From assembly GCF_009707865.1 (NCBI RefSeq), contig NZ_WMBA01000009.1, positions 62,001 to 126,000 of the forward strand: a stretch of 64,000 nt of DNA, read 5' to 3'. Shown in pieces: positions 3,811 to 23,102 of the stretch (positions are counted from its first letter, which is position 1; every line of letters begins with the position of its first letter). Below the pieces are notes generated by a model. The model ran no database searches, had not been told where the DNA came from, and saw nothing but the letters and a program-made list of their open reading frames with translations. This DNA comes from Amycolatopsis pithecellobii (lineage in GTDB: Bacteria; Actinomycetota; Actinomycetes; Mycobacteriales; Pseudonocardiaceae). Made by a program: the position numbers and the translations under genes.

Positions 3811-4640
3811 TCATGCCGCGCGGCGGGGATCGATGACCGCGGGCCGGTTGCTCGGGGCTGACTCCGGCGCGACCGGGGGCGTGGTATTCACCCGCGCCAA
3901 CCGTCGGATCTCTTTGGCACGCCCCGGAATTGCGGGCGAGAGTTTCTCGGTGACGGCGGTGAACGCGGGTGCTTCCTCGCTGTCGAGCACCAGCCGCGCA
4001 GCGACGTGGAAACGGCCCAGGTTCGCCAGATCGTGCTCGGAGAGCCGGGGCGTGGTGTGCCGGGCCAGATCCCGAGCGTCCTCGGGCGAGGCGGAGAAAA
4101 TCACCGTGCTGCGGGCGTTGGTGGAAATGCCCTCTTCCAGCTCACGGGGCAACTGCCGCAGATACTGATGGGCCAGTGTCATCGACATCCGATAACCCCG
4201 TGCTTCGGCGAGCATGTCCTCCATCGGATAGGCCAAATTCAGGAAGTTGTGGCACTCGTCGATGTAGAGCGAGGCATCGCGCCGGTCGCGTTGCGGTATC
4301 CGTGCCCGCCGGGTGGCGGCCTGCCAGGTGCGTGCCACCACGATCGATCCGATCAACCGCGCGGTATCCATCCCGAGCGCGTCCTTGCCCAGCCGCGCCA
4401 GGCAGATGCCGCCGTCGAGCACCGCGTCCATGTCCACTGTGGACTCGCCACCGGCGAGCGAGGCTCGCACGAACGGCCGCAGCAACAGGCCGCGGAGCTT
4501 GTTCATCAACGGCGCTACAACTTGCGCCCGGCTGGCCTCGGAGAGGTCGTCGTACCAATGCCAGAAACCGGTGAGGACGCGCAGGGTCAACAGCCCCAGC
4601 GGCCGGAGAGAGCGATGCACGAAGAACTCGCCACGCAACG
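3811..4640 (-). pseudogene. TraG/VirD4-like conjugation ATPase, C-terminal remnant
   Basis: About 275 residues resemble the C-terminal half of actinobacterial type IV secretion DNA-transfer ATPases. They include a Walker B-like strand (ASLYIDECHNFL), followed by the long helix ARGYRMSMTLAHQYLRQLP and the SPEDARDLARH segment. The Walker A part and everything upstream are absent: around 4625-4665 the family-like sequence stops abruptly where a plus-strand DUF2637 protein begins. The minus frame stays open to 4791, but those residues are antisense to the DUF2637 gene and do not look like family sequence. This is a 5'-deleted pseudogene. Confidence 0.75.
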
Positions 4641-4659
4641 GTTTCCCCGGGCGGTCACC

Positions 4660-5472
4660 AGCCCGCCGTACTGGCGGCTGCGCGACTACGCTGTGCCGTG
4701 GCTGCGTCAGGTGGCGCGACTGCTCATGGTGGGCACCGTTGTCGCCAACGCGGCTGCGGCGTGGCCGGACGCCGTGGCGGTCGGCCTGCATTGCGCCGCC
4801 CCGGTGATGCTGTTGGCGATGGTGGAGGCGGGCCGAGCGGTGCTCCTGCGCCGATTCACGCCCGCCAACACCGTTGCCAGGGACGCGATTCCCTGGGAGA
4901 GGTGGGTTCTCTCGCCGTGGCCAACATTGGTGCTGTGGCGCCGGCTGGTGTTGTGGCGGATTCTCAACTACGACACGGCCATTGAGACCGAACTTGCGGT
5001 TCGCCGCACCGTTGCCATACTCCGCGCCCGCGACGGTCGACGCCGGCGACGCGAAGCGCCTCTGGACATCGTCTGGATGTTGCGCACGGGCGAACGGATA
5101 AATGAGGCATGCTCAAGGGTTGAAGGCCGCAGTAACCACATCGACCAACTGCCCATTGTCGACCCACATCACCACGATGACCGGCGGGTTTCGGATCCTG
5201 GTGTGGGTTCCGAAGCCGATGTGACCGACGACAAACTGGATCAGGCGAAGGAACTGAATCGCCGGCACTGGTTCGAAACAGGCCGTCCGGTCTTGGCGGA
5301 AACAGTCCGGAAAGCCCTCCACGTCAGCGCGGCACGCTCGCGCGACCTTGCTCGAGCGGTCCGCGACTCGGATCGCCTCGCACTGTGGGACCGGCAACCA
5401 GGGGAACGTGCCGCCTCAGACATTCCATCAAGGACAGGCGAAATCAGGAGCGAGTATGAATGCCAAGCCTGA
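4660..5472 (+). pseudogene. DUF2637-type membrane protein, 5'-truncated
   Basis: From about 4660 the plus strand encodes a DUF2637-like protein: membrane segments (VARLLMVGTVVANAAAAW, then LHCAAPVMLLAMVEAGRAVL), a basic linker, and a C-terminal helix-turn-helix-like stretch (LDQAKELNRRHWFETGRPVL). Such proteins accompany FtsK or TraG transfer ATPases in actinomycete elements. The N-terminus is missing; the frame is open far upstream only because it reads antisense through the ATPase remnant. The stop lies 15 bp inside the excisionase gene, an overlap that suggests the original operon order survives on this side of the deletion. Confidence 0.7.
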
Positions 5473-5674
5473 CAACGTTCGGCACCTCACCGAACCCATG
5501 ACGGTGCCCGAGATTCTGGCGGCTCTTGGTGGTCGCGTTTCCCGTGACACCTTCTACAAGTGGCGGCAGACCGGAAAAGCGCCGCGCTGCTTCTCACTGC
5601 CGAACGGAGAACTGCGTTGCCACCGCAAAGATTTCAATGCCTGGCTGGAGTCTCTTGAGGACCAGGCGGCATGA
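5456..5674 (+). CDS. Excisionase-like helix-turn-helix protein
   Basis: This 72-residue protein has a MerR/AlpA-type winged helix (TVPEILAALGGRVSRDTFYKWRQ), followed by the short wing (PRCFSLPNGELRCHRKDFNAWL). That is the standard layout of recombination directionality factors in actinomycete integrative elements. The ATG at 5456 is preceded by AGGAGCG and overlaps the DUF2637 stop by 17 bp. Its TGA overlaps the integrase ATG at 5671, the usual xis-int coupling. The gene looks intact, although the partner integrase is ruined. Confidence 0.85.
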   Translation: MNAKPDNVRHLTEPMTVPEILAALGGRVSRDTFYKWRQTGKAPRCFSLPNGELRCHRKDFNAWLESLEDQAA

Positions 5675-6827
5675 ACACGACTTTCAACGTCTGCTTTGGA
5701 CAGATCCAGAAAAAGCCCGGCTGACGGCGCCCGTACGGCGTCCGCTGGGTGACAGACAAGAAGGAACACTCGTCTTGGTTTGCCAACAAGACACCAGCAG
5801 AGTTCCGGCGCACAGAGTTGATGCGAGCAGCGCGCCGGGGACAGGAATTCGACATCGACAGCGGACTCCCTCTGTCCGAACTCAAGCGACAGAATTCGGT
5901 GCCCTTGCTGGGGGTGAGCAAGTCGTATCTGGATATGAAATGGCCGCGGGTCGCGGCGACCTCGCGCTCGGGCATCGTCGACGGCCTGGCCTCGGCATGT
6001 GCGGCATTTGTGAAACCAGACCGCGGGCAGCCGGAGCTGCGGATGCTGCGACGCGCCCTGGTCTGTCAGCTACTTCCCCCCTCGGCACGGGCGCAGCCAA
6101 TATCGCCGGAACACCAGGAAGCGGTGTCATGGCTCGAACGTCACTCCCGCCCAATTTACGACCTTACGGACTTGTCAGTGGTCCGTGAGTTGCTCGATGC
6201 GCTCACCGTCAAGTTCGACGGAACTCCCGTCGCGGCGAAGTTGTATAGGCGCAAGAGGTCGGCTGTGTTCAACATGCTCGACTATGCGGTGGAGGAGAGC
6301 TTGTTGCCCGACAACCCCATCCGCCGTGTCAAGCACTCGGTGCCAAAACCCATCGGGCAGGTCGATCCGGGTGTGGTGGTGAGTTCCCGGCAGGCGCGAG
6401 AGCTCTTGGCAGCTGTCTCGTACTCTGGTCGGCGCGACCCGGAAACGCGGCGCGCGGCTGGTGGCGTTCTTCGCCACCTTGTACTACACGGCGGCACGTC
6501 CCGCCGAGGCGATGGCGCTCCGCGACACACGCTCGGGGCGGGGCGAACTTGCCCTGGGGGAGAGCCGGCCCTCCGCGGGCAAGAGGTGGACCGACTCCGG
6601 CGACGTACACGATCGCCGTGGCCTGAAGCACCCCCCTCCGAACGAGATACGGTATGTGCCGATCCCGCCGATGCACGTCGCGCTCCTGCCGGGTGCCACC
6701 GACGGAAGTCGCCGCGCGGGCGGGGCGCTCGGTCGATGTGCTGCTGAAGGTCTACGCGAAGTGCATCCACGGGCAGCGCGATCGTCTTAATTCCCTCATC
6801 GACGCGGCGCTGGAGGGCGAGTGGTGA
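5671..6827 (+). pseudogene. Tyrosine recombinase (integrase), inactivated
   Basis: Starting from ATG 5671 (ATGA overlap with xis), the family N-terminus MNTTFNVCFGQIQKKPG is followed by an in-frame TGA at 5722-5724, after which the same frame continues as family-like sequence. The frame is lost at about 6430-6460: the next conserved block (FFATLYYTAARPAEAMALRD, containing the first catalytic arginine) is in another frame. A further break at about 6690 joins YVPIPPMHVALL directly to the C-terminal block RSVDVLLKVYAKCIHGQRDR. The segment that should carry the H-x-x-R box is deleted. The gene ends at TGA 6825-6827. It cannot make an active recombinase. Confidence 0.85.
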
Positions 6828-6959
6828 TCTCCGATCTGTCCCGTGACTGTCCCGCGAACGCTGACAGACGCCGAGGGACAGCGACTGACAGTCACCGTCC
6901 ACGAGATCAGCGATCGTGAGCTTATGGCCAGGTCAGAGTGCATTTTCTGGCATCTATCC

Positions 6960-7004
6960 AGGTGGGCCGGGCGGGGCTCGAACCCGCGGCCAAGGGATTA
7001 TGAG
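6960..7004. repeat. attL: left copy of the 45-bp tRNA-derived attachment repeat
   Basis: The 45 bases are identical to 26924-26968, which cover the 3' half of the tRNA gene from just outside the discriminator base through the T arm to the anticodon loop. No tRNA 5' half follows here (the next bases are GCATCC), so this is a duplicated target and not a gene. It marks the left end of an island about 20 kb long. Confidence 0.93.
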
Positions 7005-7063
7005 GCATCCGTCCAGTGAGACGTGTGGCGACTACCTGGGATAACGCTCGACTTGGGGTCGTG

Positions 7064-7119
7064 TTTGGGTGCGAAAGAGGCGCTGTTCGACCCTGGTTCG
7101 CACCCAAACTCGCACCCAC
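7064..7119. promoter_or_regulatory. Integrase arm-type sites beside attL
   Basis: A perfect 12-bp inverted repeat (TTTGGGTGCGAA at 7064-7075 and its complement at 7097-7108) is followed by a second direct TCGCACCCA at 7111-7119. The same nonamer occurs beside attR at 26855-26863, with a one-base variant at 26867-26875, and decayed copies lie beside the third att. The position, 60-115 bp inside the core, fits arm-binding sites of a tyrosine recombinase. That role is inferred from position and repetition only. Confidence 0.65.
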
Positions 7120-7217
7120 GGACATCGACTTCCGGGTGACTCGTTGGCAGGATGTAACGTTTGCGGGACGCACGGCGACCCTGACCTGCTGGGGGTCGAC
7201 AGAGGGAGTCGCTAGAG

Positions 7218-8699
7218 TTGCCTGCTGTGATTACGGGTACGTTGAAGAGCAAGATCGACCGGGTCTGGGACGCGTTCTGGTCTGGGGGAATTTCCAACCC
7301 GCTCGAGGTGATCGAACAGATCACTTACCTGCTGTTCTTGCGGCGGCTGGACGACCTGCAGACCTTGAAGGAGCGCAAGGCGCAGCGCACGCGCGAGCCG
7401 GTCGAGAACCCGATCTTCCTGCGCAAGGACGAGCACCTGCGCTGGAGTCGGTTCAAGAACGACGACCCCGACGTGATGTACAAGGTGGTCTCCGAGGAGG
7501 TCTTCCCGTTCCTGCGCGGCCTCGGCAACGCGCTCGGCGGGGACAGCTCCACGTACTCCGAGCACATGAAGGACGCCCGATTCACCGTCCCGACGCCCGC
7601 GCTGCTGGCGAAGGTCGTCGACATGCTCGGCGACATCCCAATGGAGGACCGCGACACTAACGGCGACCTCTACGAGTACCTGCTCTCCAAACTTGCGACC
7701 TCCGGGACGAACGGTCAGTTCCGGACGCCGCGCCACATCATCAAGACGATGGTCGAGATGATGGCGCCGAATCCTGGCGACGAGATCTGCGACCCGGCCT
7801 GCGGCACGGCCGGCTTCCTGGTGGCCGCCGCGGAGTACGTCCGAGAGCGGCACTCCGACGCGCTGCTCAAGGAAAGTCAGCGCAAGCACTTCCACCGGTC
7901 GATGTTCCACGGCTACGACTTCGACTCCACCATGCTCCGCATCGGCAGTATGAACATGCTGCTGCACGGCATCGAGTCACCGGACATCCGCTACCGCGAC
8001 TCGCTGTCTGAAGGTGCCAGCGAGGACAGCGCGAAGTACTCCCTGATCCTGGCCAATCCTCCGTTCGCGGGATCGCTGGACTACGAGACCACCTCGAAGG
8101 ACCTGCAGCGGGCCGTGAAGACCAAGAAGACGGAGCTGCTGTTCCTCGCACTGTTCCTCAAACTGCTCAAGATCGGCGGCAGGGCCGCGGTGATCGTCCC
8201 CGACGGAGTGCTGACCGGTTCCTCGAAGGCACACAAGGACCTGCGGAAAACGCTGGTCGAGGACCAGAAGCTCGACGCTGTGGTGAAGCTGCCGTCGGGG
8301 GTGTTCAAGCCGTACGCTGGCGTGTCGACGGCGATCCTCTGCTTCACCAAGACCAACGACGGCGGCACCGACGAGGTCTGGTTCTACGACGTTCAGGCCG
8401 ACGGCCTTTCGTTGGACGACAAGCGAAATCCGGTGGAGGCCAACGACCTCCCCGACGTCCTTGAACGCTGGAAGGCCCACGCCACCACCGAACGAGCCCG
8501 CGCACGCACGGAGAAGTCCTTCACTGTCCCGAAGGAAGAGATCGCCGCCCAGGGCTACGACCTGTCGATCAACCGCTATAAGGAGATTGTCCACGACGAG
8601 GTAGAACATCGACCCCCGGTGGGCATCATCGCCGAAATAGAGACGCTGAACGACGCGATCGCGAAAGGCATGGCCGAACTGAAGGCGAGGCTGTCATGA
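7218..8699 (+). CDS. hsdM: Type I restriction-modification methyltransferase subunit HsdM
   Basis: This 493-residue N6-adenine methylase has the HsdM N-terminal helical domain (IEQITYLLFLRRLDDLQ, residues 32-48), the SAM-binding motif I DPACGTAGF (about residues 192-200) and the catalytic NPPF motif (about 280-283). It modifies the adenines of the sequence recognised by HsdS and also forms the core of the R2M2S restriction complex. The start is taken as TTG 7218 with GGGAG at 7204-7208; GTG 7227 is an alternative. Its stop overlaps the hsdS ATG by four bases. It is the first gene of the hsdM-S-R operon. Confidence 0.95.
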   Translation: MPAVITGTLKSKIDRVWDAFWSGGISNPLEVIEQITYLLFLRRLDDLQTLKERKAQRTREPVENPIFLRKDEHLRWSRFKNDDPDVMYKVVSEEVFPFLRGLGNALGGDSSTYSEHMKDARFTVPTPALLAKVVDMLGDIPMEDRDTNGDLYEYLLSKLATSGTNGQFRTPRHIIKTMVEMMAPNPGDEICDPACGTAGFLVAAAEYVRERHSDALLKESQRKHFHRSMFHGYDFDSTMLRIGSMNMLLHGIESPDIRYRDSLSEGASEDSAKYSLILANPPFAGSLDYETTSKDLQRAVKTKKTELLFLALFLKLLKIGGRAAVIVPDGVLTGSSKAHKDLRKTLVEDQKLDAVVKLPSGVFKPYAGVSTAILCFTKTNDGGTDEVWFYDVQADGLSLDDKRNPVEANDLPDVLERWKAHATTERARARTEKSFTVPKEEIAAQGYDLSINRYKEIVHDEVEHRPPVGIIAEIETLNDAIAKGMAELKARLS

Positions 8700-9862
8700 A
8701 TAGCGCTCAACTTGGTGACGTCGCGTTGATCAACCCACGTGGTGACGCGGTCGCCGCCCATGAGCGTGTCTCTTTCGTTGGTATGGCGCAGCTCGATGCC
8801 GAGCAAGCTGTAGCGAGGCCATTGGAGACCAGACTGTTCGCAGAGGTGTCAAAGGGCTACACGATCTTCCGGGACGGCGATGTGCTCGCTGCGAAGATCA
8901 CGCCGTGCTGGGAAAACGGCAAGATTGGCCAAGCCAGACTGGACAATAAGATCGGAGTCGGATCCACCGAATTTCACGTGGTTCGTCCGGGTGTAGAACT
9001 AGACGAACGTTATCTACTGCACTTTCTACGGCAGCCGGCGATCCGCGCCAGTGGTGAATTGCGAATGACCGGCAGCGCTGGCCAGCGGCGAGTACCCGCG
9101 GCCTTCCTGCGGGACTTGAGGGTTCCGGTGCCGAGTCTTGATGAGCAACGGCGGATTGCTGGGATTCTTGATCAGGCCGATGCCATCCGCGCCAAGCGCC
9201 GCCAGGTCCTCGCCCACCTCGACGCCCTAACCCAGTCCATCTTCCGAGGCATGTTCGCAGAGGCGCCTGTGACTACGACTGTCGAACACATAGCCATCCG
9301 CATGCGGACAGGGCCTTTTGGAAGCCAACTGCTCCACAGCGAGTTTGTCGACGACGGTGCCGTCGCCGTACTTGGGTTGGATAACGTAGTCGCCAACGAA
9401 TTCAGGTGGGCTCAGCGTCGCTACATCACCGATGCGAAGTACGAGAAACTCAAACGTTACACAGTACTTCCCGGTGATGTACTGATCAGCATCATGGGAA
9501 CCACGGGTCGGTGTGTCGTAGTTCCCGAGAACATAACCACGGCGATAAACACAAAGCACATCTGCGCTGTCACTGTTGATCGCGAGAATTTTGATCCGAT
9601 CTTTCTTCGGGGATGTTTCTTGTGGCACCCAGAGTCCCGCGTCCATCTGCATCGGCAGACCAAGGGATCAGTCATGGATGGACTGAACATGGGCATCATC
9701 AAGGAGATGCCTGTGCCGGTGCCGCCTCTGGGGTCCCAGCGGGAGTTCGCTGCTCGCGCCTATCAGGTCGAGGTTCAACGGGCGCTTGTGCGGCGGGCGT
9801 TGGACGCAGACAATGAACTCTTCGCGTCTTTGCAGGGTCGGGCGTTTCAGGGGGAGCTTTAG
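8696..9862 (+). CDS. hsdS: Type I restriction-modification specificity subunit HsdS
   Basis: The 388 residues contain two target-recognition domains, roughly residues 1-150 and 195-345. Each is followed by a conserved coiled-coil spacer: LDEQRRIAGILDQADAIRAK near 143-162, and the shorter QREFAARAYQVEVQRALVRR at the C-terminus. Each recognition domain reads half of a bipartite target, and the helices set the spacing. The ATG overlaps hsdM by four bases (ATGA), so translation is probably coupled. Both domains look complete. The recognised sequence cannot be predicted from this reading. Confidence 0.94.
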   Translation: MNSAQLGDVALINPRGDAVAAHERVSFVGMAQLDAEQAVARPLETRLFAEVSKGYTIFRDGDVLAAKITPCWENGKIGQARLDNKIGVGSTEFHVVRPGVELDERYLLHFLRQPAIRASGELRMTGSAGQRRVPAAFLRDLRVPVPSLDEQRRIAGILDQADAIRAKRRQVLAHLDALTQSIFRGMFAEAPVTTTVEHIAIRMRTGPFGSQLLHSEFVDDGAVAVLGLDNVVANEFRWAQRRYITDAKYEKLKRYTVLPGDVLISIMGTTGRCVVVPENITTAINTKHICAVTVDRENFDPIFLRGCFLWHPESRVHLHRQTKGSVMDGLNMGIIKEMPVPVPPLGSQREFAARAYQVEVQRALVRRALDADNELFASLQGRAFQGEL

Positions 9863-9865
9863 ACG

Positions 9866-12800
9866 ATGGGGAACTTCGACTTCGTCGGGGCTGCTCTGCC
9901 GGTTGTGCGCGACGACTGTGCCAAGGCGGAGTCGTATCTGGCTACCGATCCGCGTTCGGCGTGTTTCTACAGCCGCCGGGCGGTCGAGCGGCTGGTCAAG
10001 TATCTCTTCGATGTGGTCGGCCTCAAGGAGCCGTACAAGAAGGATCTCAACGCGCACATTCACGACGCGGCGTTCAAGGCGGTCACCGGGCCGGCGATTA
10101 CCAAGAAACTCAACCTCATCCGCCTGGCCGGGAACACGGCGGTGCACGAAACCCGCGCGGTTCGCCCGGACGTGGCGACCGCCGTGCTGCGGGAGTTGCA
10201 CCATGTGCTGATCTGGGCTGCCTTCCACCACTCCCCGAATCCGCAATCGGTCCCGGTCGAGGCCGCGTTCGACCCGGAGCTGGCAGGCACCTCAGCGCCG
10301 CTGTCGCACGATCAGGTCAAGCGGCTCGAAGAGAAGTTCGCTGCACAGGACACGGCGCGTGCGAAGGAACTGTCCGAGAAGGATGAACTGCTTCGCGCGC
10401 ACGAGGCCGAGATCGCCAAGCTCCGGGAGCAGATCGAGGCCGCGCAGGCGGCCAAGACCGCCACCGACGACCGAGACTACAACGAGGCCGACACCCGAAA
10501 CCTGATCATCGACGTATTGCTGGGCGAGGCAGGCTGGTCACTTGACGCCGACCGCGACCGAGAGTATCCGGTCACCGGGATGCCCCCGGACGGCGGGCTG
10601 GGCTACGTCGACTACGTGTTGTGGGGCGCGGACGGCCTGCCGCTAGGGGTCGTCGAGGCAAAGCGCACCAACAAGAGCGCTGAAGTTGGTCGCACCCAGG
10701 CCAAGCTCTACGCCGACTGCCTGGAAAACCAGTTCGGCCGCCGCCCGGTAATCTTTTACACCAATGGCTACGAACACTGGATTTGGGACGATTCGGCCGG
10801 GTACCCGCCACGCGAAATCCAAGGCTTCTACACGCGAGACGAGCTGGAACTGCTTATCCAGCGCAGACTGACCCGGCAGCCGCTATCCACCGCACCGATC
10901 AACCGCGACATCGCCGGGCGGCCCTACCAGGAAAGCGCGATCAAGGCTGTCGGGGCCGCGTTCGAGGCCAAGCAGCGTCAGGCTCTGCTTGTGATGGCCA
11001 CCGGATCCGGGAAGACCCGTACCGTGGTCGCACTGGTCGACCAGCTGATGAAAGCCAACTGGGCCAAGCGGGTTCTGTTCCTCGCCGATCGCACTGCGCT
11101 GGTCAACCAGACCGTCAACGTGTTCAAGCAGCAACTGCCGTCGGTGCCCGTCGTGAACCTCGTGACGGAGAAGAACGTCGACGCGCGGGTATGCGTGTCC
11201 ACGTATCCGACCATGCTGAACCTGATCAACGAGCTGGACGGTGTCCGGAAGTATGGGCCGGGCTACTTCGACCTGGTCGTGATCGACGAGGCGCACCGGT
11301 CCGTGTTCGCGAAGTACGGCGCCATCTTCGATTTGTTCGACAGCCCGCTGCTGGGCCTCACCGCCACGCCGAAGGACGACGTCAACCGCAGCACTTACCG
11401 GCTGTTCAACCTTGAGGACGGCGTGCCCACCGACAGTTACTCGCTGGAGGACGCCGTCAACGACGGCTGGCTCGTGCCACCGAAAGGCGTGTCCATCGGA
11501 ACCAAGTTCCTCCGCCAGGGCATCCGGTACGCGGACCTCTCCGAGGAGGAGAAGGACGAGTGGGACGCGCTCGACTGGGGCGAGGAGACACCAACCCCCA
11601 CCGAGATCGACGCCCAGGAGATCAACCGCTTCCTGTTCAACAAGGACACCGTGGACAAAGTCCTCGCCACCCTCATGGAGAGCGGCTACAAAGTTGCCGG
11701 TGGCGACCGTCTCGGCAAGACGATCATCTTTGCGATCAGCCAGCGGCACGCCGAGTTCATCCAAAAGCGCTTCGACGAACAATGGCCCGAGTACGGCGGC
11801 ACTTTCGCGCGCACAATCACGCACGGCACGCCGTATGCGCAAAGCCTTATCGACGACTTCTCACAAGCCGACAAGGCACCGCACATCGCAATCTCCGTGG
11901 ACATGCTCGACACCGGCATCGACGTGCCCGAGGTCGTCAACCTAGTGTTCTTCAAGCCGGTATGGACCACGTCGAAGTTCTGGCAGATGATTGGACGTGG
12001 CACCCGGCTACGCCCCGATCTCTTCGGGCCGGGCAAGAACAAGACGGACTTCCTCGTCTTCGACTTCTGCGGCAACCTCGAGTTCTTCAGCCATGGCATG
12101 CCGACCGTCGAAGGGGCGGTGCAGAAGTCATTGTCGCAGAGGCTGTTCGAGGCGCGGCTTGACGTCGTAACTGCGCTCGACCATCACGGGCTTGAGGCCG
12201 GACTCCGGGAGAGCACGGCGGCAACGCTGCACGAGTTCGTTGCCGGGATGAACCTCGACAATGTGCTGGTGCGGCCGCACCGCCACGCCGTCGAGCGGTT
12301 CGCCGATCGGGACGCGTGGATATCGCCGTTGTCCGACGAGCGCACCGTAGCGGTGCGCGAACTCGCCGGCCTGCCCTCGGCGAACAGGGATGAGGATGAA
12401 GACGCGAAGAGATTCGACCTGCTCATTCTGCGCCGCCAGCTTGCCCAGGTCGAAGGAGACGTCGCGACTGCCGAAAGGGTGCGAGAGAAAGTCCAGGACG
12501 TTGCCGACGCGCTCTTGCGCATGGTCCCGTCCATCCCGTCCGTGACGGAACATCGCGAACTCATCGAGGCCGTTGCCGGTGATCAGTGGTGGGTCGATGT
12601 CACCCTGTCGATGCTCGAACACGCACGGCTGCGGTTGCGGGCCCTCGTACGGCTGGTCGAGCCAGGCAAGCGCGATCCGGTGTACGCCGATTTCACCGAC
12701 GAACTCGTCGCGCCGACCGAGGTCACATTGCCCGGAACTGCTCCCGGCATCAACCTAGAACGTTTCCGCGTCAAGGTGATGGCGTGTCTCGAGCAGCACA

Positions 12801-13234
12801 CCGATCATGTCGCGCTGCAGCGGCTGCGCCGCAACAAGCAGCTCACACCCGAGGATCTGATGTCGCTCGAGGACATGCTGCTGTCCTGCGGGGTAGGGCA
12901 GCGTGACGAGCTGGAGTCTGCCGCTGAGCGAACCGGGGGCCTCGGCTTGTTCATCCGCTCGTTGGTCGGGCTCGACCGTGCGGCCGCCAAAGAAGCATTT
13001 GCCGACTACCTCGACGGTGGGCGGTTCACCGCGGACCAGATCCGCATCGTCAACATGATCATCGACGAGCTGACGTCGAACGGGGTCGTAGAGCCGCGAC
13101 GGCTTTACGAGTCGCCATACACCGACTACGCGCCCACCGGGATCGACGTCGTCTTCCCCATCGAGCACGTGGAAATCATTGTCGACACGCTCCAGTGGAT
13201 CAGGCGCACAGCCCTCCCGGCTAACGTTGCCTAA
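9866..13234 (+). CDS. hsdR: Type I restriction enzyme subunit HsdR (DUF4145 N-terminus)
   Basis: This 1122-residue protein is the translocating nuclease. Residues 1-130 form a DUF4145/HEPN-like helical domain (CFYSRRAVERLVKYLFDVVG). A coiled-coil region follows at about 145-200. The nuclease domain ends in the catalytic strand LGVVEAKR (about 258-265). The SF2 helicase has Walker A ATGSGKT (about 377-383), DEAH (about 472-475) and the later GLTATP and GRGTRLRPDLF boxes. It starts three bases after hsdS. In the assembled complex it pumps DNA with ATP and cuts unmodified DNA at a distance. The reading frame is complete, so the system is predicted to be active. Confidence 0.95.
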   Translation: MGNFDFVGAALPVVRDDCAKAESYLATDPRSACFYSRRAVERLVKYLFDVVGLKEPYKKDLNAHIHDAAFKAVTGPAITKKLNLIRLAGNTAVHETRAVRPDVATAVLRELHHVLIWAAFHHSPNPQSVPVEAAFDPELAGTSAPLSHDQVKRLEEKFAAQDTARAKELSEKDELLRAHEAEIAKLREQIEAAQAAKTATDDRDYNEADTRNLIIDVLLGEAGWSLDADRDREYPVTGMPPDGGLGYVDYVLWGADGLPLGVVEAKRTNKSAEVGRTQAKLYADCLENQFGRRPVIFYTNGYEHWIWDDSAGYPPREIQGFYTRDELELLIQRRLTRQPLSTAPINRDIAGRPYQESAIKAVGAAFEAKQRQALLVMATGSGKTRTVVALVDQLMKANWAKRVLFLADRTALVNQTVNVFKQQLPSVPVVNLVTEKNVDARVCVSTYPTMLNLINELDGVRKYGPGYFDLVVIDEAHRSVFAKYGAIFDLFDSPLLGLTATPKDDVNRSTYRLFNLEDGVPTDSYSLEDAVNDGWLVPPKGVSIGTKFLRQGIRYADLSEEEKDEWDALDWGEETPTPTEIDAQEINRFLFNKDTVDKVLATLMESGYKVAGGDRLGKTIIFAISQRHAEFIQKRFDEQWPEYGGTFARTITHGTPYAQSLIDDFSQADKAPHIAISVDMLDTGIDVPEVVNLVFFKPVWTTSKFWQMIGRGTRLRPDLFGPGKNKTDFLVFDFCGNLEFFSHGMPTVEGAVQKSLSQRLFEARLDVVTALDHHGLEAGLRESTAATLHEFVAGMNLDNVLVRPHRHAVERFADRDAWISPLSDERTVAVRELAGLPSANRDEDEDAKRFDLLILRRQLAQVEGDVATAERVREKVQDVADALLRMVPSIPSVTEHRELIEAVAGDQWWVDVTLSMLEHARLRLRALVRLVEPGKRDPVYADFTDELVAPTEVTLPGTAPGINLERFRVKVMACLEQHTDHVALQRLRRNKQLTPEDLMSLEDMLLSCGVGQRDELESAAERTGGLGLFIRSLVGLDRAAAKEAFADYLDGGRFTADQIRIVNMIIDELTSNGVVEPRRLYESPYTDYAPTGIDVVFPIEHVEIIVDTLQWIRRTALPANVA

Positions 13235-13678
13235 CGCATAACATTATTGTCGCTTGCAGCACCCTCTGGCCGATAACGGCGCTCGAATTTAGGTGCTCCG
13301 GACAAACCGGCGCGCAGAGCCGATGGCGGCGGCGAGTGAGCCCCCGGTTCGACGGTGGCTAAATGCTGCCTTGCTTCGTTATGTCCGCCGCAGCGCAGCT
13401 GCTTTCATTTAAAGATCAAATGCGCGAACTGTGAGAACCTGTCTCCCGAAATCAACCTCGTGCGCCGGGCTGGGCTCGAGGCTGCGGTCAAGGGATTATG
13501 GCACCCGTCCAGCGGGGCGTGGGGCGACTACCTGCGTCGATGCTCGACCGAGGGTCGTGGTTGGGTGCGAAAGAGGCGTCAAGTGAGGGGTTCGCACCCA
13601 AAGTCACGCCCACAGCATGCTGTAGTGGTTGGTGACGAGCATGATCCAGCTTCGGCGGTGAGTGCAGGATCTCAGCCG
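13235..13678. other. Non-coding gap containing a third, decayed att site
   Basis: This 444-bp stretch lies between hsdR and the AlbA_2-type gene. The first 225 bp show no gene or strong structure. From 13462 it carries a diverged copy of attL plus its arm region. The remainder, to 13678, looks like downstream sequence of the minus-strand gene. A plus-strand open frame across this gap has no ribosome-binding site and reads antisense into the neighbouring gene, so I do not call it. Confidence 0.7.
13462..13610. repeat. Third att-like copy with left-arm DNA (decayed)
   Basis: Positions 13462-13500 align with the attL core; the anticodon-loop end CAAGGGATTATG (13489-13500) is exact, while the T-arm side is mutated. 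The alignment continues for about 100 bp past the core, including the blocks GTCCAG and GGCGACTACCTG, the inverted repeat TTGGGTGCGAA / TTCGCACCCAA (13561-13571 and 13591-13601) and a damaged second arm copy. It is therefore a second left end of the same kind of element, not a chance similarity. Confidence 0.8.
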
Positions 13679-15058
13679 CTAGTCTTGGCGGTCGTCCGAT
13701 CCGTCGTGGTCCTCGTTAAGGCCGGGCGAGATCATTTTGCGGATCGCTGGCCCAAGGTCATGCTCGCGGTCGACGGCGACAGACAGGGCTCCCTCGTAGA
13801 CGTCATGATGACCGCGCGCAGTAGCCCTCCAAGTGGCTTCGATGCGCTTCAGCGTCGGATCGTCGACCACGAGAACCAGGCCGTTGCTGCTTTCAAAAGT
13901 TCCCTCAGGTCGCAGTTCTCTGAGCGGCAACGTGAGATCGACGGATCCGCCGTTGGTGAAGGAAACCGAGCCGTTGCCGTCATTCGCAACTGGTGGAAAG
14001 TACGGCATCTGAACAACGTTTGACGGATCTCTCCACAGTAGACTTTCCGCGAGCGCCTGTGGTCCCCAAGTACGTGGCTGTGCTGGGAGTTTTCGTATAC
14101 CTGCGTCGTCGGTCTGTACTCGGTGTAGCCCGCGCACCTCGCCGTTAAGGTGGATGGTCAACTCGACGCCTTCGAGGAAGGTACGTCGCAAATTCTGGAT
14201 GCGCACTCGAACACATGGCCACACTCGACTGACGACGTCATCCACGGCTTCCGGCCACGACTCGCCGAGTTGTTCTTCCCAGCGTTCGATTTCGGCCACG
14301 TACTTGTCGTATGTTCGTGGCTCGGGCCGCATAGTTGCGGCGACAATTTGGGAAACTATGATGTCGCTGTAGCCGGAAGCCTTACGGTGAGCATCGCGGT
14401 AGGCGTCGAGCAGTTGTTGTTTGCGTGCGCCTCGATATTGATCTAGTGCAGCCGACGCGTCTGGAGCGGCAATTGCAGAACCGACAATGGTCACAGCAAG
14501 ATCCGCGGTGTGCCGGACTTGACGGGCGCGGTTGAGCAGGACGCGCACCTCGTCACCTTTGGCCTCGCGGGTCTCGCCATCCGTACGGACGTAGATTCCA
14601 CCATCCTTTAGGTTTTCAGGGCCATCCTTGTGGCACGTCCACACCGGATCGCCGTGCCGGGGCGGGTCGACGACGACCACGATAACGTCGTGAACGGCAT
14701 CGACACGAATACGCTCGAAGTCCCAGCCAGGGGCATCCGCGCTGGCAAACTTCCTGACAGTCCGTTCCAGGTCTTTGGCCTCGAAGAAGGGAATTCCGGT
14801 CACCGCGTCTTTTGCCACACCCAGCACGAGCAAGGCGTGACCGCCGAAGCGACGTGCAGCACGCTCTGGTAGGCGGTTGGCGGCACCGAGGATGAACTTC
14901 GCTACTTTCGCTCGGCCGGGCTCGGTGGTCAGGTCGACGTCGGATTTCAGTTCCAAAAAGTAGCGTTCGGCGCGGTCGTCCACCATGCCGAGTGCCGCGA
15001 TGAACTCGGCCCACTCGCGCTGGCCCTTGGGAAGACGAGTCAGATCGAGTTCGGTCAT
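13679..15058 (-). CDS. AlbA_2 / Schlafen-like putative DNA-binding protein
   Basis: The 459-residue product has an N-terminal AlbA_2-like domain: RYFLELKSDVDLT (about 32-44), KVAKFILGAANRLPERAARR (about 51-70) and GHALLVLGVAKDAVTGIP (about 73-90). The rest is a divergent alpha/beta region I cannot assign. AlbA_2 domains are related to Schlafen nucleases and occur in regulators and in phage-defence genes. I start at ATG 15058; ATG 15097 in the same frame is possible. The gene stands alone between the decayed att and a broken regulator, with its own leader on the right. A defence role is inferred only from domain and location. Confidence 0.6.
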   Translation of the reverse strand: MTELDLTRLPKGQREWAEFIAALGMVDDRAERYFLELKSDVDLTTEPGRAKVAKFILGAANRLPERAARRFGGHALLVLGVAKDAVTGIPFFEAKDLERTVRKFASADAPGWDFERIRVDAVHDVIVVVVDPPRHGDPVWTCHKDGPENLKDGGIYVRTDGETREAKGDEVRVLLNRARQVRHTADLAVTIVGSAIAAPDASAALDQYRGARKQQLLDAYRDAHRKASGYSDIIVSQIVAATMRPEPRTYDKYVAEIERWEEQLGESWPEAVDDVVSRVWPCVRVRIQNLRRTFLEGVELTIHLNGEVRGLHRVQTDDAGIRKLPAQPRTWGPQALAESLLWRDPSNVVQMPYFPPVANDGNGSVSFTNGGSVDLTLPLRELRPEGTFESSNGLVLVVDDPTLKRIEATWRATARGHHDVYEGALSVAVDREHDLGPAIRKMISPGLNEDHDGSDDRQD

Positions 15059-15432
15059 GAGATCGACTCTAGCTGAACGACCCAACTCCTTGGGCATACG
15101 GCCGGGTTCCTGGTCATGCTTGTCGGCGCGTTCTCAGATCGAACCAGCGTTACGAGACTTTGCGAGGTCGTTGCGCCAACCCGAAGCTGTCCCGGCGAAC
15201 GAGGCAAAAGCTCAGTTTCCTGTTCGGCTACGACGAGGTGTCATTTCCGGTGCGGCGTCGTTCATCACCGCCGACTTCCACCTCTCCGCCATACTCAGCA
15301 GTCTTAAGACTGGACACTCGGCGGGCTACGCAAGGATAGGTACGGGGCCTGCGTCGACCACAATGGATGATCACGACCCACACGCGCTCAAGATCCAAAT
15401 GAGACGCGCCCTTACTGTAATGATGAAGGTTG
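15059..15432. other. Non-coding gap upstream of the AlbA_2-type gene
   Basis: This 374-bp stretch separates the start of the minus-strand AlbA_2-type gene from the end of the minus-strand XRE-TPR pseudogene. It should contain the promoter of the former. I find no convincing gene, strong hairpin or repeat in it. The base composition is somewhat more AT-rich than the chromosomal genes, as elsewhere in the element. Confidence 0.5.
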
Positions 15433-16649
15433 CTACAATCTGTTACCCGTTGAGTTGTCAGTCGGACTGCCGTGCGTTGCCGTGACCTTCGCGTGCAAGC
15501 GGCCAATCCTCCGAGCCTGTCTCACCGAGCCGATCCCATCCGTGAGGTCGTTTGCTATTGCGATCTGCTGCGCCGCTTGCTGGTACTCGTTTTGAGCGCC
15601 TAGCGCAGTTGCGAGGTCTACACGGAGGCTTGTCTCGGCTCGCGTGAAGGAACGGTCCATGTTGCCGAGGGCTGTTGTTAGCACCTCGACCGCCTCCGCG
15701 TCACCCATGCGCGCGAGAGCATGTCCTCGCCATCGGGCGAGGTGGATGTCGTCTAAAACGACGTATGGACCGGCGTTGGTGGGGCCATCGGCGGGTAGAA
15801 GGTGGCTGGCGTGATCAAATGCGCGGAGACTTGCTGAGTGTTGGCCACGTGCCGCAAGGACTTCGCCGTGTGCGGCGGCCAACCATGCGCGTAATAACCG
15901 GCTTGCTGATTTCTCGACTCTGGCGCGAGTGGTTGAGAGCAGGTCGTCAGCTATATCAGCCTTCCCGAGATCGACTAGGACAAAGGCTTGCTCTGCTTCC
16001 GTGTGGGCCTTGAACTCATCATCGCCCGATTCATTCACCGCTGCTTTGGCGCTTTCGTACTGTCGCCACGATTCGTGTAGGCGCCCAAGATCGAGGGTTT
16101 GCCAGCCTGCCAGCGTGCCCAGTTCGGCGCGGATCGTAGCGAGTTGTTGGCGAGTTCCCGGCGTGAGACTTGATGACAGAAGAAGGGCGACCTGCCGAAT
16201 CTTCGCGTCGACTTCTTCGCGAGTGACCGGCGCGCCGAGTTGTCTGTCCATTCGGCGAATCGCATCAAGCTGATCATGAAGCAACGCAAGGATTGATGCA
16301 TCCACTCGTCGGCCGTGCTGAGCATGCGGTGTAGCTCCTGCTCTCCTTCCCTGTACGGCTCGTCCGATGTGGACGCAAGTGGGGACAGGAGTTCGTGGAT
16401 GCTGACGCCAAAAAGGCGCTCAAGTAGGCGTGAGGTTGCTGCGCCCGGGGTCCCGATACGAGATCCGTCTGGCTTACGCCCTGCAATCAACCGTTTGAGG
16501 TTTCGCTCGCTCAGTGTCCCGCGTTCGCCGACCTGACGGGCGAACCGTTCGGCGTACTCGACGAACTCCGCGAGCGTCTCTTCCCGCTCCCAGATCTTTT
16601 GTTCGAGTACCGTGCGGGGCGCGCGCCCGCGGTTGCGTCCGTTCGTCAC
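15433..16649 (-). pseudogene. XRE-type regulator with TPR-like C-terminus, frameshifted
   Basis: Two overlapping minus-strand frames together make one regulator of about 405 residues. The first (from ATG 16649) encodes the helix-turn-helix part, including TLSERNLKRLIAGRKPDGSR. The second (ending at 15433) encodes a TPR-like domain with the segments EAEQAFVLVDLGKADIADDL and HLARWRGHALARMGDAEAVE. The break is near 16305, where the first frame wanders into STADEWMHQSL and the second resumes at DASILALLHDQLD. The intact paralogue at 23103-24236 has both halves in one frame. It is either a real indel or, less likely, a recoding site. Confidence 0.75.
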
Positions 16650-16763
16650 CGTCGGTCCTCTCCTCCCCGCGGCGTGCCGCGATCTGTCCCCGTGTTGGCC
16701 CGCTGTTGGCCTTCCGCACCGGTGCGCTGATTGGCAAGCTGATATTGGTTCTCATGTAACTAT

Positions 16764-16799
16764 AGTCGCTGCTAGACATGCATTGTCGACAGTGACTAC
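16764..16799. promoter_or_regulatory. Imperfect palindrome in the divergent promoter region
   Basis: A 36-bp imperfect palindrome centred on ATGCAT (16779-16784) has outer arms TAGTCGCTG and CAGTGACTA, matching at eight of nine positions. It lies between the XRE-TPR pseudogene (minus) and the zinc-motif gene (plus), where promoters for both must be. It is a candidate operator for one of the element's regulators. Confidence 0.4.
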
Positions 16800-16839
16800 G
16801 TCGGCTGATTGAACCTTGGCGGGGAGAGGTGAGGGGCCT

Positions 16840-17217
16840 ATGAGTTTGACTCGACTGCTGCTGGCACGGCCGGTTGAGGGCACTGTCGGGGAGCGACAAC
16901 GCGTGACGCACCTTGTGTACGTGCCGGAGGCGCGGAATCGGGCTTTACTCGCGCGGGCGTGCTGTGGGCAAGCGTTCGGTCCGGGCGACCTGGAGTTGCT
17001 CGACGGGGTCGCGGGCATGCCATGTGAGGCGTGCTTGCGTCACGCTCCCATCAATAACGCTGAAGGGGTGCTCACAGACGGGGACCTGATCGTGAGCCGT
17101 CTGACTGGCCTAGAGGCGCAGGTTGAGCTTCTTGCTGAATTGGTTGACCGGGTGGGTAAGCGTCTTTCACAGGCGACGATCACCTTTCCTGGCGAGCAGT
17201 CCAATGTGGAGGGTTGA
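16840..17217 (+). CDS. Hypothetical element protein with a C...C-x2-C zinc-like motif
   Basis: This is a 125-residue protein of unknown function. It contains cysteines in ARACCGQAF and in the downstream MPCEACLRH (about residues 47-70), a spacing like a small zinc-binding module. A C-terminal amphipathic helix follows (LEAQVELLAELVDRVGKRL). The ATG at 16840 is preceded by a good GGAGAGGTGAGG ribosome-binding site. It is the first gene of a compact plus-strand operon (zinc-motif protein, GntR, two small paralogues), separated from GntR by three bases. Confidence 0.6.
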   Translation: MSLTRLLLARPVEGTVGERQRVTHLVYVPEARNRALLARACCGQAFGPGDLELLDGVAGMPCEACLRHAPINNAEGVLTDGDLIVSRLTGLEAQVELLAELVDRVGKRLSQATITFPGEQSNVEG

Positions 17218-17220
17218 GAG

Positions 17221-17502
17221 ATGGCGGATGTGTCCGCGTTGAAGTCGATCTATCAACTCGACGGTCCGCCCGGCTATCTCTACGAAGTGATGGCGCAGCA
17301 TCTGGCTGCTCGTATTGAAGCTGGCGAGTTGTCACCCAACACGCTGCTTCCGTCCGAGCGGCGTTTGGCGGCTGAGTATGGCGTTGCGCTCGGTACGGCT
17401 CGGCATGCCACGCGCCTGCTCCGTGTCCGTGGGCTTGTTGTGACCATCCCGTCGAAGGGAACGTATGTCGCCCAGCGACAAGGAAGGTTGGACGGTGATT
17501 GA
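17221..17502 (+). CDS. Short GntR-family winged-helix regulator
   Basis: The 93 residues are essentially a bare GntR DNA-binding domain: YEVMAQHLAARIEAGELSPN, then LPSERRLAAEYGVALGTARH and the wing GLVVTIPSKGTYV. There is no effector domain. Such short GntR proteins are common regulators of conjugation genes in actinomycete plasmids and integrative elements, KorSA of pSAM2 being the known example. It starts at ATG 17221 directly after the zinc-motif gene and overlaps the next gene by eight bases. Confidence 0.85.
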   Translation: MADVSALKSIYQLDGPPGYLYEVMAQHLAARIEAGELSPNTLLPSERRLAAEYGVALGTARHATRLLRVRGLVVTIPSKGTYVAQRQGRLDGD

Positions 17503-17848
17503 TCTGCCCAAACACATGTACCGACTGGGCAAAGTGCTGGAGAAGGAGCACCACACGCTCGCCGAACGCCAGGATGACGGCCACGAGGCCATAGATCAGT
17601 TCGCCCGGCTCGGTGACTACCTCCTGGAGACCGGTGTCAATGTCCTGAGCGAAGTCCCCGAGCTTGACACAAGGAACCTGGAAGACGCCGCGCTGGCCGT
17701 CAGGTCCGTTCTCGCTGATCGACTGCGGGAACCACCATCTCGCGCATACGAGATCCGGCGAAAGGCTCGTACCTGGCGCTTGGGCGGAATCACTGTTTCG
17801 GTTTTCGCCGAGCGACGCGTCCCGGCTGTATCGGAGGGCCAGTCATGA
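17495..17848 (+). CDS. Small helical protein, member 1 of a tandem paralogous pair
   Basis: The product has 117 residues and no recognised domain. I use the GTG at 17495, which has AGGAAGG seven bases upstream and overlaps the end of the GntR gene; an ATG at 17465 is in frame but has no better signal. The core L-x2-RQD-x4-EA-x4-RLG-x2-LL-x2-G-x-N-x-L is shared with the next gene, so the two are tandem paralogues. The sequence predicts a helical bundle and no membrane segment. The four-base overlap with the next gene suggests coupled expression and perhaps a complex. Confidence 0.6.
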   Translation: MIDLPKHMYRLGKVLEKEHHTLAERQDDGHEAIDQFARLGDYLLETGVNVLSEVPELDTRNLEDAALAVRSVLADRLREPPSRAYEIRRKARTWRLGGITVSVFAERRVPAVSEGQS

Positions 17849-18282
17849 CGCTGGAGTTGGAACATCTGGAGACCGTGATCGATACCGTCGTTCTTCCGCT
17901 GACCAAGCGGCAGGACGTTGCCGAGGAGGCGACGACGGATTTACGACGGCTCGGCTGTTTCCTGCTGACGGTGGGTCAGAACATTCTCCGTGCGGGTGGC
18001 TTGAGCCGGACTGACCTCGCAGCGGCCATTGTGACCGTGGAAACGATGATCGAGGGGGAAGCGCCGGACGGGTCGACTCCCGCGTTGAGCCCGATCATTG
18101 ACACTCAGCTCAAGCAGTTGCACGACGTGCGGTCGACCATTGTCGACAGCGCTACGGCGCTCGACCACGGCACACCTCGCTATGCGGCGGTTCTCGCGTC
18201 GTTGGATGGTGTCATCGCCGCAGCGACAGGGTTGCAGGCGCTCTTGGGTTTCGCCCCGGCTCTGATACCCACCGATACCTAA
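17845..18282 (+). CDS. Small helical protein, member 2 of a tandem paralogous pair
   Basis: The product has 145 residues and no recognised domain. Residues 18-50 carry the same spaced pattern as the preceding protein (TKRQD, EEATTDL, RLGCFLL, VGQNIL), followed by a helical C-terminal half ending in a hydrophobic stretch (GLQALLGFAPAL). The ATG overlaps the upstream stop (ATGA). A strong hairpin follows the stop at 18288-18319, so this is the last gene of the operon. The role in the element is unknown. Confidence 0.6.
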   Translation: MTLELEHLETVIDTVVLPLTKRQDVAEEATTDLRRLGCFLLTVGQNILRAGGLSRTDLAAAIVTVETMIEGEAPDGSTPALSPIIDTQLKQLHDVRSTIVDSATALDHGTPRYAAVLASLDGVIAAATGLQALLGFAPALIPTDT

Positions 18283-18287
18283 GGAGA

Positions 18288-18319
18288 CTTCCGGCCCTTC
18301 TCCGATGAAGGGCCGGAAG
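18288..18319 (+). terminator. Hairpin after the small-protein operon
   Basis: A perfect 13-bp stem (CTTCCGGCCCTTC at 18288-18300 and its complement at 18307-18319) with a six-base loop starts six bases after the stop of the last operon gene. There is no T run, which is normal for actinobacterial terminators. Confidence 0.7.
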
Positions 18320-18578
18320 CCCGGGGCCAGCCCGCCGTGTGGGTATTCCGGTGTGAATCGGCGGGCTGACTTCGCCATCCTGGGGCATACCTGACGGGGC
18401 CTCTTTGGACGGTGGCGCCTTGCCGCGTCAGGTCGTTCAGGGCCGCGACCGGCCGCGTTCCGTAACCACGCGCATGTTCTCCGAGTGCCGTTCTGGGCTT
18501 CCCCAAGGGCTGTTATGCCGGGAGCGCCGACAACCCGTCCCACCCGTCACGAGGCGTGTTCGTGCAGGTGGGAAGCCG

Positions 18579-18621
18579 CAGTGGCCCGTCACGCTGGATG
18601 TCTTGGTGTGACGGGCCACTG
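18579..18621 (-). terminator. Hairpin after the FtsK-type transfer operon
   Basis: A perfect 14-bp stem (CAGTGGCCCGTCAC at 18579-18592 and its complement at 18608-18621) has a 15-base loop. It lies just downstream of the minus-strand FtsK-type gene, which ends at 18638, and probably terminates that operon. Confidence 0.65.
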
Positions 18622-18637
18622 TGCCGGGTGAGACGGG

Positions 18638-20767: not shown

Positions 20768-21455
20768 GAACGACCTCCCGAAGTTCGGCCGCAAGCCGTG
20801 AAGACAGGCCACGTGAACAGGAGGTCACCTCACGGACCCAGGCGGGCGTGATCTTCACATCCGGTGTCCAAGCCCGTCCCGCCTCGGCAAGGTAGTCCTC
20901 GAACGACTTCCGCGGCATTGGCTGTCGCGGTTCATGAACGGCGGGCTCCGACGACACCACAACGGCTGCCTCGGTGAGCTTGTCCCGCAGATCGGTGATC
21001 GCCTCGGCCGCAGCGAACACGACCAACGGCGGCACCGAATGCAGCACCACGCCCGAGAGTGACCCGGCCGCATACGAAGACCACGTGTTCATCACGTACG
21101 TTGCCGCGATGGTCAGCCACTTGGCGCACCGCACCCACCGTCCTGTTTGGACCCGGTACCGGGCGGTGACTTGCTCGGCGCGGAGAACAGCAAGCAGCAC
21201 AAGCGAAACGGTGGGGTCGAGTAGCCACGCTGTCAGCCACGGCAGCGACCACGGCGCCGAATCCGCTGCTGCGAAGTGCTGAACGTTGGCCATCGTGAAC
21301 GCCAGTCCGAGCCCGATTCCGGTCCAGCACAACCGGTCCACTTGCGTCCGGACTCGCTCGACGTACAGGGCAGCCACATCCGGACGGGCACGATGTCGAC
21401 GAACCTCTGCCGCCTCGGCGGCTTCTTGGGCGAGCTGTTGCGCACGCGTGGTCAT
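20754..21455 (-). CDS. DUF2637 membrane protein
   Basis: The 233-residue protein has an N-terminal helical region rich in alanine and arginine and four or five hydrophobic segments in the middle (IGLGLAFTMANVQHF, LTAWLLDPTVSLVLLAVL, WLTIAATYVMNTWSSYAAG, GVVLHSVPPLVVFAAAEA). A soluble tail ends it. DUF2637 proteins sit next to FtsK-type translocases in most actinomycete integrative elements and are thought to help transfer or spreading; the exact role is not established. The ATG at 21455 has GAGGAGG upstream and overlaps the preceding stop (ATGA). The degenerate element to the left encodes a truncated relative at 4660-5472. Confidence 0.88.
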   Translation of the reverse strand: MTTRAQQLAQEAAEAAEVRRHRARPDVAALYVERVRTQVDRLCWTGIGLGLAFTMANVQHFAAADSAPWSLPWLTAWLLDPTVSLVLLAVLRAEQVTARYRVQTGRWVRCAKWLTIAATYVMNTWSSYAAGSLSGVVLHSVPPLVVFAAAEAITDLRDKLTEAAVVVSSEPAVHEPRQPMPRKSFEDYLAEAGRAWTPDVKITPAWVREVTSCSRGLSSRLAAELREVVHERD

Positions 21456-21766
21456 CGCCGCCTCCTCGTGGTGCCCAACTCCGTCACCGTCAAAGCCCGG
21501 GTGAGGACATAGGCGGCTACCAGGTCGGGAAGCGCGAGCACCCCGAGCCGCAACGTCAGGTCCGCCGTGTGCGTGACGACGAGCCACTGAACGCCGACCA
21601 TGCCCGCCGCCACCAACAGCACCCGACCGGCCAGCGACACCACACGAGCACTCGCCCGCGCGGTCTCGGCCGCCCGGCGAGCCCGACGAGCACCAGACCG
21701 CCACACCACTACAAGCGCCAGCAGTCCACCGACACCGATCGCGACCTCTGTAGGCGTCACGTTCAC
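21452..21766 (-). CDS. Small membrane protein of the transfer operon
   Basis: The 104-residue product has one clear N-terminal membrane segment (VAIGVGGLLALVVVW), a basic alanine-rich helix (ARRARRAAETARASARV) and two further hydrophobic stretches (LLVAAGMVGVQWLVV and LALPDLVAAYVLTRAL). The GTG start overlaps the whiB-like stop (GTGA), and its TGA overlaps the DUF2637 ATG. Such small membrane proteins are frequent between WhiB and DUF2637 genes in related elements and may be Spd-like (spread) proteins; that assignment is inference. Confidence 0.7.
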   Translation of the reverse strand: MNVTPTEVAIGVGGLLALVVVWRSGARRARRAAETARASARVVSLAGRVLLVAAGMVGVQWLVVTHTADLTLRLGVLALPDLVAAYVLTRALTVTELGTTRRRR

Positions 21767-22104
21767 CGCGCACCCCCTTCCGGCCGATTCCGGCGCCAAC
21801 GCCAAAGTCGGTGCACTGCGCGCCGGTCGGTGTCGGCCAAGGCGCCCCACACGCCGACGGTGTGCTCACCGGCCGTGCGCAATTCGAGTTCCAGGCACTC
21901 ATCGATCACGGGGCAGCCCGCGCACATCCACGCGGCCAACTCCCGGTCTGGCACGTCCTCCCCGGACAGTTCGGGTATCTCGTCCCGATCGAACATCCAG
22001 AAGCACAAGCCCTCACGGGTAACCACGTCGGCGAGCACTTCGTCCGGTACGGGGGCCAGGCGGTCAAGCCGCTTGGCGATCTCGGCGTAATCGTCGGGGG
22101 TCAT
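21763..22104 (-). CDS. WhiB-family iron-sulfur regulator
   Basis: The 113-residue protein carries the WhiB cysteine set: C34, C61, C64 and C70 (the last three as C-x2-C-x5-C). It also has the turn GVWGAL at residues 84-89, where most family members have GVWGG. WhiB proteins bind a [4Fe-4S] cluster and act as sigma-factor-associated regulators restricted to actinobacteria and their phages. It is encoded within the transfer operon, overlapping the excisionase-like gene upstream by four bases and the membrane-protein gene downstream. A role in controlling transfer is plausible but unproven. Confidence 0.9.
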   Translation of the reverse strand: MTPDDYAEIAKRLDRLAPVPDEVLADVVTREGLCFWMFDRDEIPELSGEDVPDRELAAWMCAGCPVIDECLELELRTAGEHTVGVWGALADTDRRAVHRLWRWRRNRPEGGAR

Positions 22105-22379: not shown

Positions 22380-22407
22380 CGAAGAATTCCTTTGATCAGA
22401 AGAGCCT

Positions 22408-22433: not shown

Positions 22434-22544
22434 CAGCGCAAATTGGCATATGAAAGGTCCAAAAGCGCGACGCTGCGTGCTGGCTGCGCCGCGGAAAGCG
22501 ATTAGGCGCTAATCTCGGCTCCTAGGCGGAGCACGGAGGAATAG

Positions 22545-23068: not shown

Positions 23069-23102
23069 TCGCAGTTCAGCACGGTTATTCAGGGGCTGGC
23101 TG

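Follow-up and report, generated by a model that had tools for sequence, protein, structure and literature searches.

Cis-mobilizable elements (CIMEs), which have lost integration and transfer genes and keep both attL and attR, have been described to accrete with integrative and conjugative elements (ICEs), and conjugative transfer of CIME-ICE tandems has been observed (PMC5704250). A survey of streptococci describes composites in the order CIME-ICE-target gene (PMC7563491). Here we report a comparable arrangement in a stretch of 64,000 nucleotides from Amycolatopsis pithecellobii (contig NZ_WMBA01000009.1, positions 62,001 to 126,000; hereafter the window, whose own coordinates are used throughout). 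In it, a type I restriction-modification (hsd) operon forms a module, M (6960-13457), between attachment (att) sites and beside an element that resembles an actinomycete integrative and conjugative element (AICE; 13458-26924). With a probability of roughly 0.7, we read the locus as a stack of three elements at the 3′ end of a tRNA-Met gene, in which M would be a CIME and the composite of M and the AICE-like element would be moved by the integrase and excisionase of the latter.

The streptococcal composites are similar in that an att-flanked element without integrase and transfer genes lies next to an ICE, in tandem, at a shared target gene, and the order and the 1.2-13 kb class described in the survey fit M. 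Unlike them, the locus described here is actinobacterial, lies at tRNA-Met, carries a type I restriction-modification cargo and is known from sequence alone (PMC5704250, PMC7563491). In Frankia, the AICE Fean6303 has attL, attL2 and attR, and its short and long forms were detected by polymerase chain reaction; it shares with the present locus three direct repeats that surround one AICE and extend into the 3′ end of a tRNA, but it uses tRNA-Arg and both of its left sites work, whereas the inner site is decayed here (PMC3218068). In Streptomyces scabiei, TR1 is described as a CIME and TR2 as an ICE, separated by an inner att, and TR1 transfer needs TR2; an island in S. turgidiscabies also has three att sites. 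An actinobacterial cargo module and an inner att that sets off the ICE are common to both cases, but the Streptomyces regions are much larger, use an 8-bp att outside a tRNA gene and carry other cargo (PMC8369830). At a Streptomyces tRNA-Arg, one to three AICEs or defective AICEs are stacked with an old remnant, and the authors suggest that an intact integrase could mobilize the tandem. This accretion at one tRNA is similar, but the defective AICEs keep traB by definition, whereas M holds hsd genes only (PMC9513070). Among the literature titles, none concerned a CIME that carries restriction or defence genes, whether from actinobacteria or from any other source, which is no proof of absence. 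The arrangement is already known in kind, and the useful addition is that the arm repeats follow the integrase subtype.

Left-end copies and the hsd module at tRNA-Met

The att sites, their arms and the genes of M are as follows.

6960-7004, + strand: outer left att core, which matches the 3′ part of tRNA-Met without a difference (45/45 with 26924-26968, window self-BLAST)
7005-7119, + strand: outer left arm, with TGGGTGC at 7066 and GCACCCA at 7100 and 7112
7218-8699, + strand: hsdM, type I N6-adenine methyltransferase subunit (PF02384 1.3e-65, PF12161 1.3e-18)
8696-9862, + strand: hsdS, specificity subunit (PF01420, two stretches, 2.4e-15)
9866-13234, + strand: hsdR, restriction subunit of 1122 aa (PF04851, PF08463, PF04313)
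13398-13457, + strand: possible decayed integrase-side arm of M, with weak likeness to tRNA-side arms
13458-13500, + strand: third, decayed att core
13501-13613, + strand: left arm of the AICE-like element, with intact repeats at 13562 and 13594 and a degraded third
26924-27000, − strand: outer right att core within an intact tRNA-Met gene (CAT; ARAGORN, 26925-27000), whose 3′ part is the att core

Self-BLAST of the window aligned 6962-7119 with 13460-13613 on the same strand over 158 columns at 77.8% identity (E 7.1e-28). This bears out an earlier note on this DNA, which had placed a diverged attL copy with about 100 bp of arm, in the same orientation, at 13462-13610; the copy stands, and the alignment extends just a few bases past these limits. 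In comparison with 3000 random non-overlapping pairs, core and arm of both left ends scored 143 (random maximum 39) and the arms alone, 7005-7119 and 13501-13613, scored 98 (random maximum 37). Likeness confined to the tRNA-like core, which would have spoken against that claim, is ruled out by the 158-column alignment and the arm-only score. The similarity stops where the last arm repeat ends: 7120-7226 and 13614-13720 score below the random mean. No similarity was found between the 300 bp left of core 6960 and the 300 bp left of core 13458.

Between the two left-end copies, hsdM, hsdS and hsdR are full-length open frames that overlap or abut, which confirms the complete operon proposed earlier, and HsdM, HsdS and HsdR encoded in one operon identify a type I restriction-modification system. 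The hsdM gene starts about 100 bp past the outer left arm. M is about 6.5 kb long and is flanked by the att sites at 6960 and 13458 in direct orientation; a simple gene caller found only the three hsd genes between them, and neither integrase nor transfer genes, as in a CIME. No PF00589 or PF00239 match occurs inside M, and the window integrase used as a tblastn query found no fragment in 13235-13457. The nearest named HsdR relatives are from Prauserella (80-81%).

The two left ends of M and its neighbour have decayed to different degrees. The inner core differs from the tRNA in 9/44 columns, a 2-base gap included, and the outer left core (6961-7004) in 0/44; if both were equally old, the chance that all changes fell on one core would be 0.004 (9 changes) or 0.008 (gap counted once). 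The inner left arm keeps 2/3 GCACCCA/TGGGTGC repeats, and no intact arm repeat occurs within 150 bp left of the inner core. The decay of the inner core, set against an intact outer left one, makes the 20-kb composite 6960-26924 the likely moving unit, in preference to free gain and loss of M alone.

The 60 bp directly left of the inner core were compared with six reference arms from the integrase (tRNA) side of such elements. Region 13398-13457 aligned to the tRNA-side arms of genome G004 (p 0.0005), the window (p 0.0075) and G016 (p 0.017), and was not alike those of G005 (contigs C173 and C11) and G011. Across all six arms, the best-of-six p was 0.001 and the sum p was 0.0025, compared with best-of-six p values of 0.12, 0.07 and 0.72 for the control stretches 13300-13359, 13240-13299 and 6900-6959, respectively. 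The region is likely, if uncertainly, a trace of the integrase-side arm of M.

Two features lie to the left of the outer core.

4006-5472, + strand: protein with a DUF2637 match, which probably belongs to an older element (element 1; PF10935, E 1.4e-6)
5671-6827, + strand: broken tyrosine-integrase-like gene of the older element (tblastn with an open reading frame of G038)

The broken gene matches a 457-aa open reading frame of G038 (L177:10024-11397) in three tblastn pieces at 63, 67 and 80%, relative to which it is frameshifted and about 70 residues short. That frame matches PF00589 below the cut-off (25.1 bits, cut-off 27.1, E 1.7e-5) and ends 128 bp before a core/tRNA copy in G038; the pieces in the window have no Pfam match of their own. 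The broken gene, which ends 134 bp before core 6960, and the DUF2637 protein lie to its left, so an older element probably has its right end at this core. A border with plain chromosome was rejected on account of the broken gene, which is integrase-like solely through its below-cut-off G038 relative, and position 6960 is probably not the left end of the whole structure, contrary to what had been assumed previously. No significant match to a further core was found left of 6960 in the same genome.

The AICE-like element and the arm repeats

The following features belong to the AICE-like element.

13679-15097, − strand: cargo gene (called AlbA_2-type in the earlier note), with no Pfam, NCBIfam or PADLOC match at the limits used
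18638-20812, − strand: FtsK/TraB-like translocase of the conserved backbone (NCBIfam FtsK 2.2e-6, TraB 6.1e-6, both far below cut-off)
22101-22379, − strand: excisionase (TIGR01764 36.4 bits, cut-off 28.8; PF12728 45.1 bits)
24222-24800, − strand: NUDIX hydrolase of the backbone (PF00293 2.2e-16)
25555-26883, − strand: tyrosine integrase, the sole PF00589 match in contig C144 among the matches listed
26857-26875, + strand: integrase-side arm, with GCACCCA at 26857 and 26869

In its tyrosine integrase, its excisionase and its insertion at a tRNA 3′ end, the element agrees with an AICE. No replication initiator was found among those of its proteins that were scanned. The translocase has no Pfam match; a homolog in G005 is 80% identical. 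Homologs of the translocase and the integrase occur together beside the same core in G005, G075 (C27), G002, G007, G012 (C56), G027 and G058, and G017 has an integrase homolog with only part of the backbone set.

Both left arms in the window carry TGGGTGC/GCACCCA, a repeat that is also found on the integrase side of the AICE-like element. The G005 element on contig C173, whose integrase is 87% identical to that of the window, shows the same pattern: in both, the integrase-side arm has two GCACCCA and the left arm has TGGGTGC with one or two GCACCCA. Seven elements with integrases 64-68% identical to that of the window (G002, G007, G012 C56, G017, G027, G058 and G075 C27) carry ATGGAC twice in the integrase-side arm (7/7) and in the left arm (6/6 seen). 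The chance expectation of the arm motifs is 0.03 and 0.05 per 130 bp, for motifs chosen after looking at the sequences. A single GCACCCA also occurs beyond the tRNA in G002, G003 and G017, and G002 has another to the left of its distal core, at which a fragment of an integrase of the same subtype as in the window has survived.

By their repeats, both left arms of the window are of the type of the window integrase, and M appears to have an end of its neighbour's type because its left arm holds TGGGTGC/GCACCCA and not ATGGAC. The repeats are putative binding sites of the integrase, judging from this co-variation and from general knowledge of tyrosine integrases. They also support the earlier note in its treatment of the hsd operon as a module of its own, bracketed by att sites and separate from the conjugative element.

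Elsewhere in the window, 52604-52709 and 57468-57573 form a 106-bp direct repeat (94% identical), and 40930-41103 and 49791-49908 are related, partly palindromic repeats in both orientations.

Related loci in other genomes

Stacking at this core is common. An integrase fragment lies left of a further core in G005 (two places), G001, G002, G003, G011, G016 and G017. Among 19 genomes of the genus, nine segments that run from one core to the next and measure 5 kb or more could be delimited on single contigs: M, the window AICE, and segments in G002, G003, G005 (C173), G007, G011, G016 and G017. A possible tenth segment, 55 kb of G011 that ends at a partial core of 38 bases, is not included in this count; that core match (L173 8241-8278; G011:C2:356240-356277) lies 55 kb beyond the G011 module in the same orientation. 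In another family of the order, G108:C81 has four tRNA-Met core matches over 84 kb (190100-274352).

PF00589 is present in 6/9 segments and absent from M, G011 and G016; no serine recombinase was found in the modules of G000, G011 and G016. The G011 module encodes a PDC-S37 protein, HsdM and HsdR. In the G016 module, Pfam architecture and identity point to proteins like PDC-S37 and GmrSD, and DISARM-type proteins are encoded as well (DrmD/DrmA, DrmA, DrmB and DrmC models). Since these two modules share 6.1 kb at 92%, they represent one lineage and M a second, and two lineages are too few to assert a preference of integrase-less modules for defence cargo. Both G011 and G016 are imperfect cases: arm repeats are present in G011 on the left only and in G016 on the tRNA side only, and the G016 left arm is too diverged to be detected by the arm search. 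In G005 C11, the same arm type stands before another gene set, in which 3/9 proteins have a Pfam match (metabolic, transport) and 6/9 have none; the defence scan covered 1/9. The left-end cargo of a related G005 element includes a 1360-aa protein with ALF repeats and a pretoxin-HINT domain (L044 3752-7834).

The left arm was detected in 3/19 genus genomes and, at E <= 0.001, in 21/390 family genomes, own genome included in both, with many of the latter matching by the repeats alone. Among the fetched loci (1.5 kb each side for most), the arm is joined to this hsd operon or to gene 13679 in the window alone. Homologs of gene 13679 occur in 13/385 other family genomes, none with the arm within the 1.5-kb flanks. 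The search thus returned no junction that contradicts the proposed module, including no genome in which this hsd operon adjoins conjugative genes without the third att, and it returned no second genome with this hsd operon behind the arm either.

Of 232 hsdR relatives, 80 loci were kept, several of them cut by contig ends. A tRNA scan covered 28 of these, and eight with a tRNA were tested for repeats (L091, with a transfer-messenger RNA, was left out). In mycobacteria, relatives of the hsd operon adjoin tRNA-Leu (TAG), either after hsdR or before hsdM, with no direct flanking repeat in the fetched DNA (tRNA-Leu at L097 13410-13493, L104 13588-13672 and L099 7278-7359). They were considered as a parallel and rejected, as no direct repeat of the tRNA region fell below E 0.01 except in L101. 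In that locus, from a metagenome-assembled genome of Nocardioidaceae, a 23-bp repeat of a tRNA-Leu end (1821-1843 and 23084-23106) brackets a region with an hsd operon.

Probable history of the stack and proposed mobility of the composite

The simplest history is that an hsd element decayed to a CIME, an AICE integrated adjacent to it, and the pair later moved and re-integrated as a composite, because the inner junction seems older than the outer one. M would derive from an integrative element of its neighbour's att subtype; the integrase would have been lost, while the left core and arm remained, perhaps together with a trace of the integrase-side arm. Integration of the AICE-like element beside it would have created a hybrid inner site at 13458, which then decayed, giving the order element 1 (remnant), M and AICE-like element. 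The integrase and excisionase could then recombine 6960 with 26924 and release M and the AICE-like element as one 20-kb circle. The layout of the locus, the arm repeats, the unequal decay of the cores and the lack of an integrase in M are seen in the sequence itself; this order of events and the mobility of the composite we infer.

An origin of M by tandem integration of a second, integrase-less element, one of the two that the earlier note had offered, is the best explanation of the module. The other was duplication of the left end, in which the locus would be one element with hsd as ordinary left-end cargo and core and arm copied by local duplication or homologous exchange. The two arms of the window are each other's closest relatives (76% identical, with any other arm copy at <=68%), as are those of G005 (80%), which is what such copying would give. 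The similarity is limited, however, to core and arm, about the span that is shared with other species, and the possible integrase-side trace left of the inner site is unexpected for a copied left end. With the arms 24% diverged and the similarity ending with the arm repeats, plain duplication is less likely, and we consider this history as a whole improbable. Still less probable is that hsd is gained and lost alone through recombination of 6960 with 13458 by the neighbour's integrase, as the earlier note had suggested. The two arm repeats left at the inner site would agree with this, as would the absence of hsdR from all 18 other genus genomes at E <= 1e-50. Crossover by such integrases often takes place at the anticodon-loop end, however, and this end is among the changed columns of the inner core, to the left of which no intact repeat remains within 150 bp; separate mobility of M today is doubtful. 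We give very little weight to a third possibility, that M was never an element and hsd entered between stacked elements by illegitimate or homologous recombination, the att bracketing being incidental. None of the 80 hsdR loci has this att at E <= 0.05, which speaks for it, but the distance from the arm to the start of hsdM is about 100 bp, and in two related species integrase-less defence genes follow a similar arm.

Several points weigh against the three-element stack with a mobile composite. M, the AICE-like element and the composite have each been seen once, with no other genome carrying this hsd operon behind the arm, and local duplication would equally leave the window arms closer to each other than to other copies. 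Elements with the integrase subtype of interest number only two. One of the six reference arms provides most of the evidence for the right-arm trace, and single p values of 0.0075-0.015 were obtained for control stretches as well. Finally, core 6960 could owe its perfect state to gene conversion by the tRNA or to selection acting on the outer site, with no need for a recent integration.

If the stack is read correctly, stacking at a shared tRNA site would be a route by which an immunity operon joins a conjugative element without a transposon. It is a tentative and rather unlikely extension that AICEs at this tRNA-Met help integrase-less defence modules (type I restriction-modification, DISARM-like, PDC-S37) with matching arm repeats to exchange at one address. 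Arm repeats that track the integrase subtype may offer a rule for reading off the modules that a given integrase could move.

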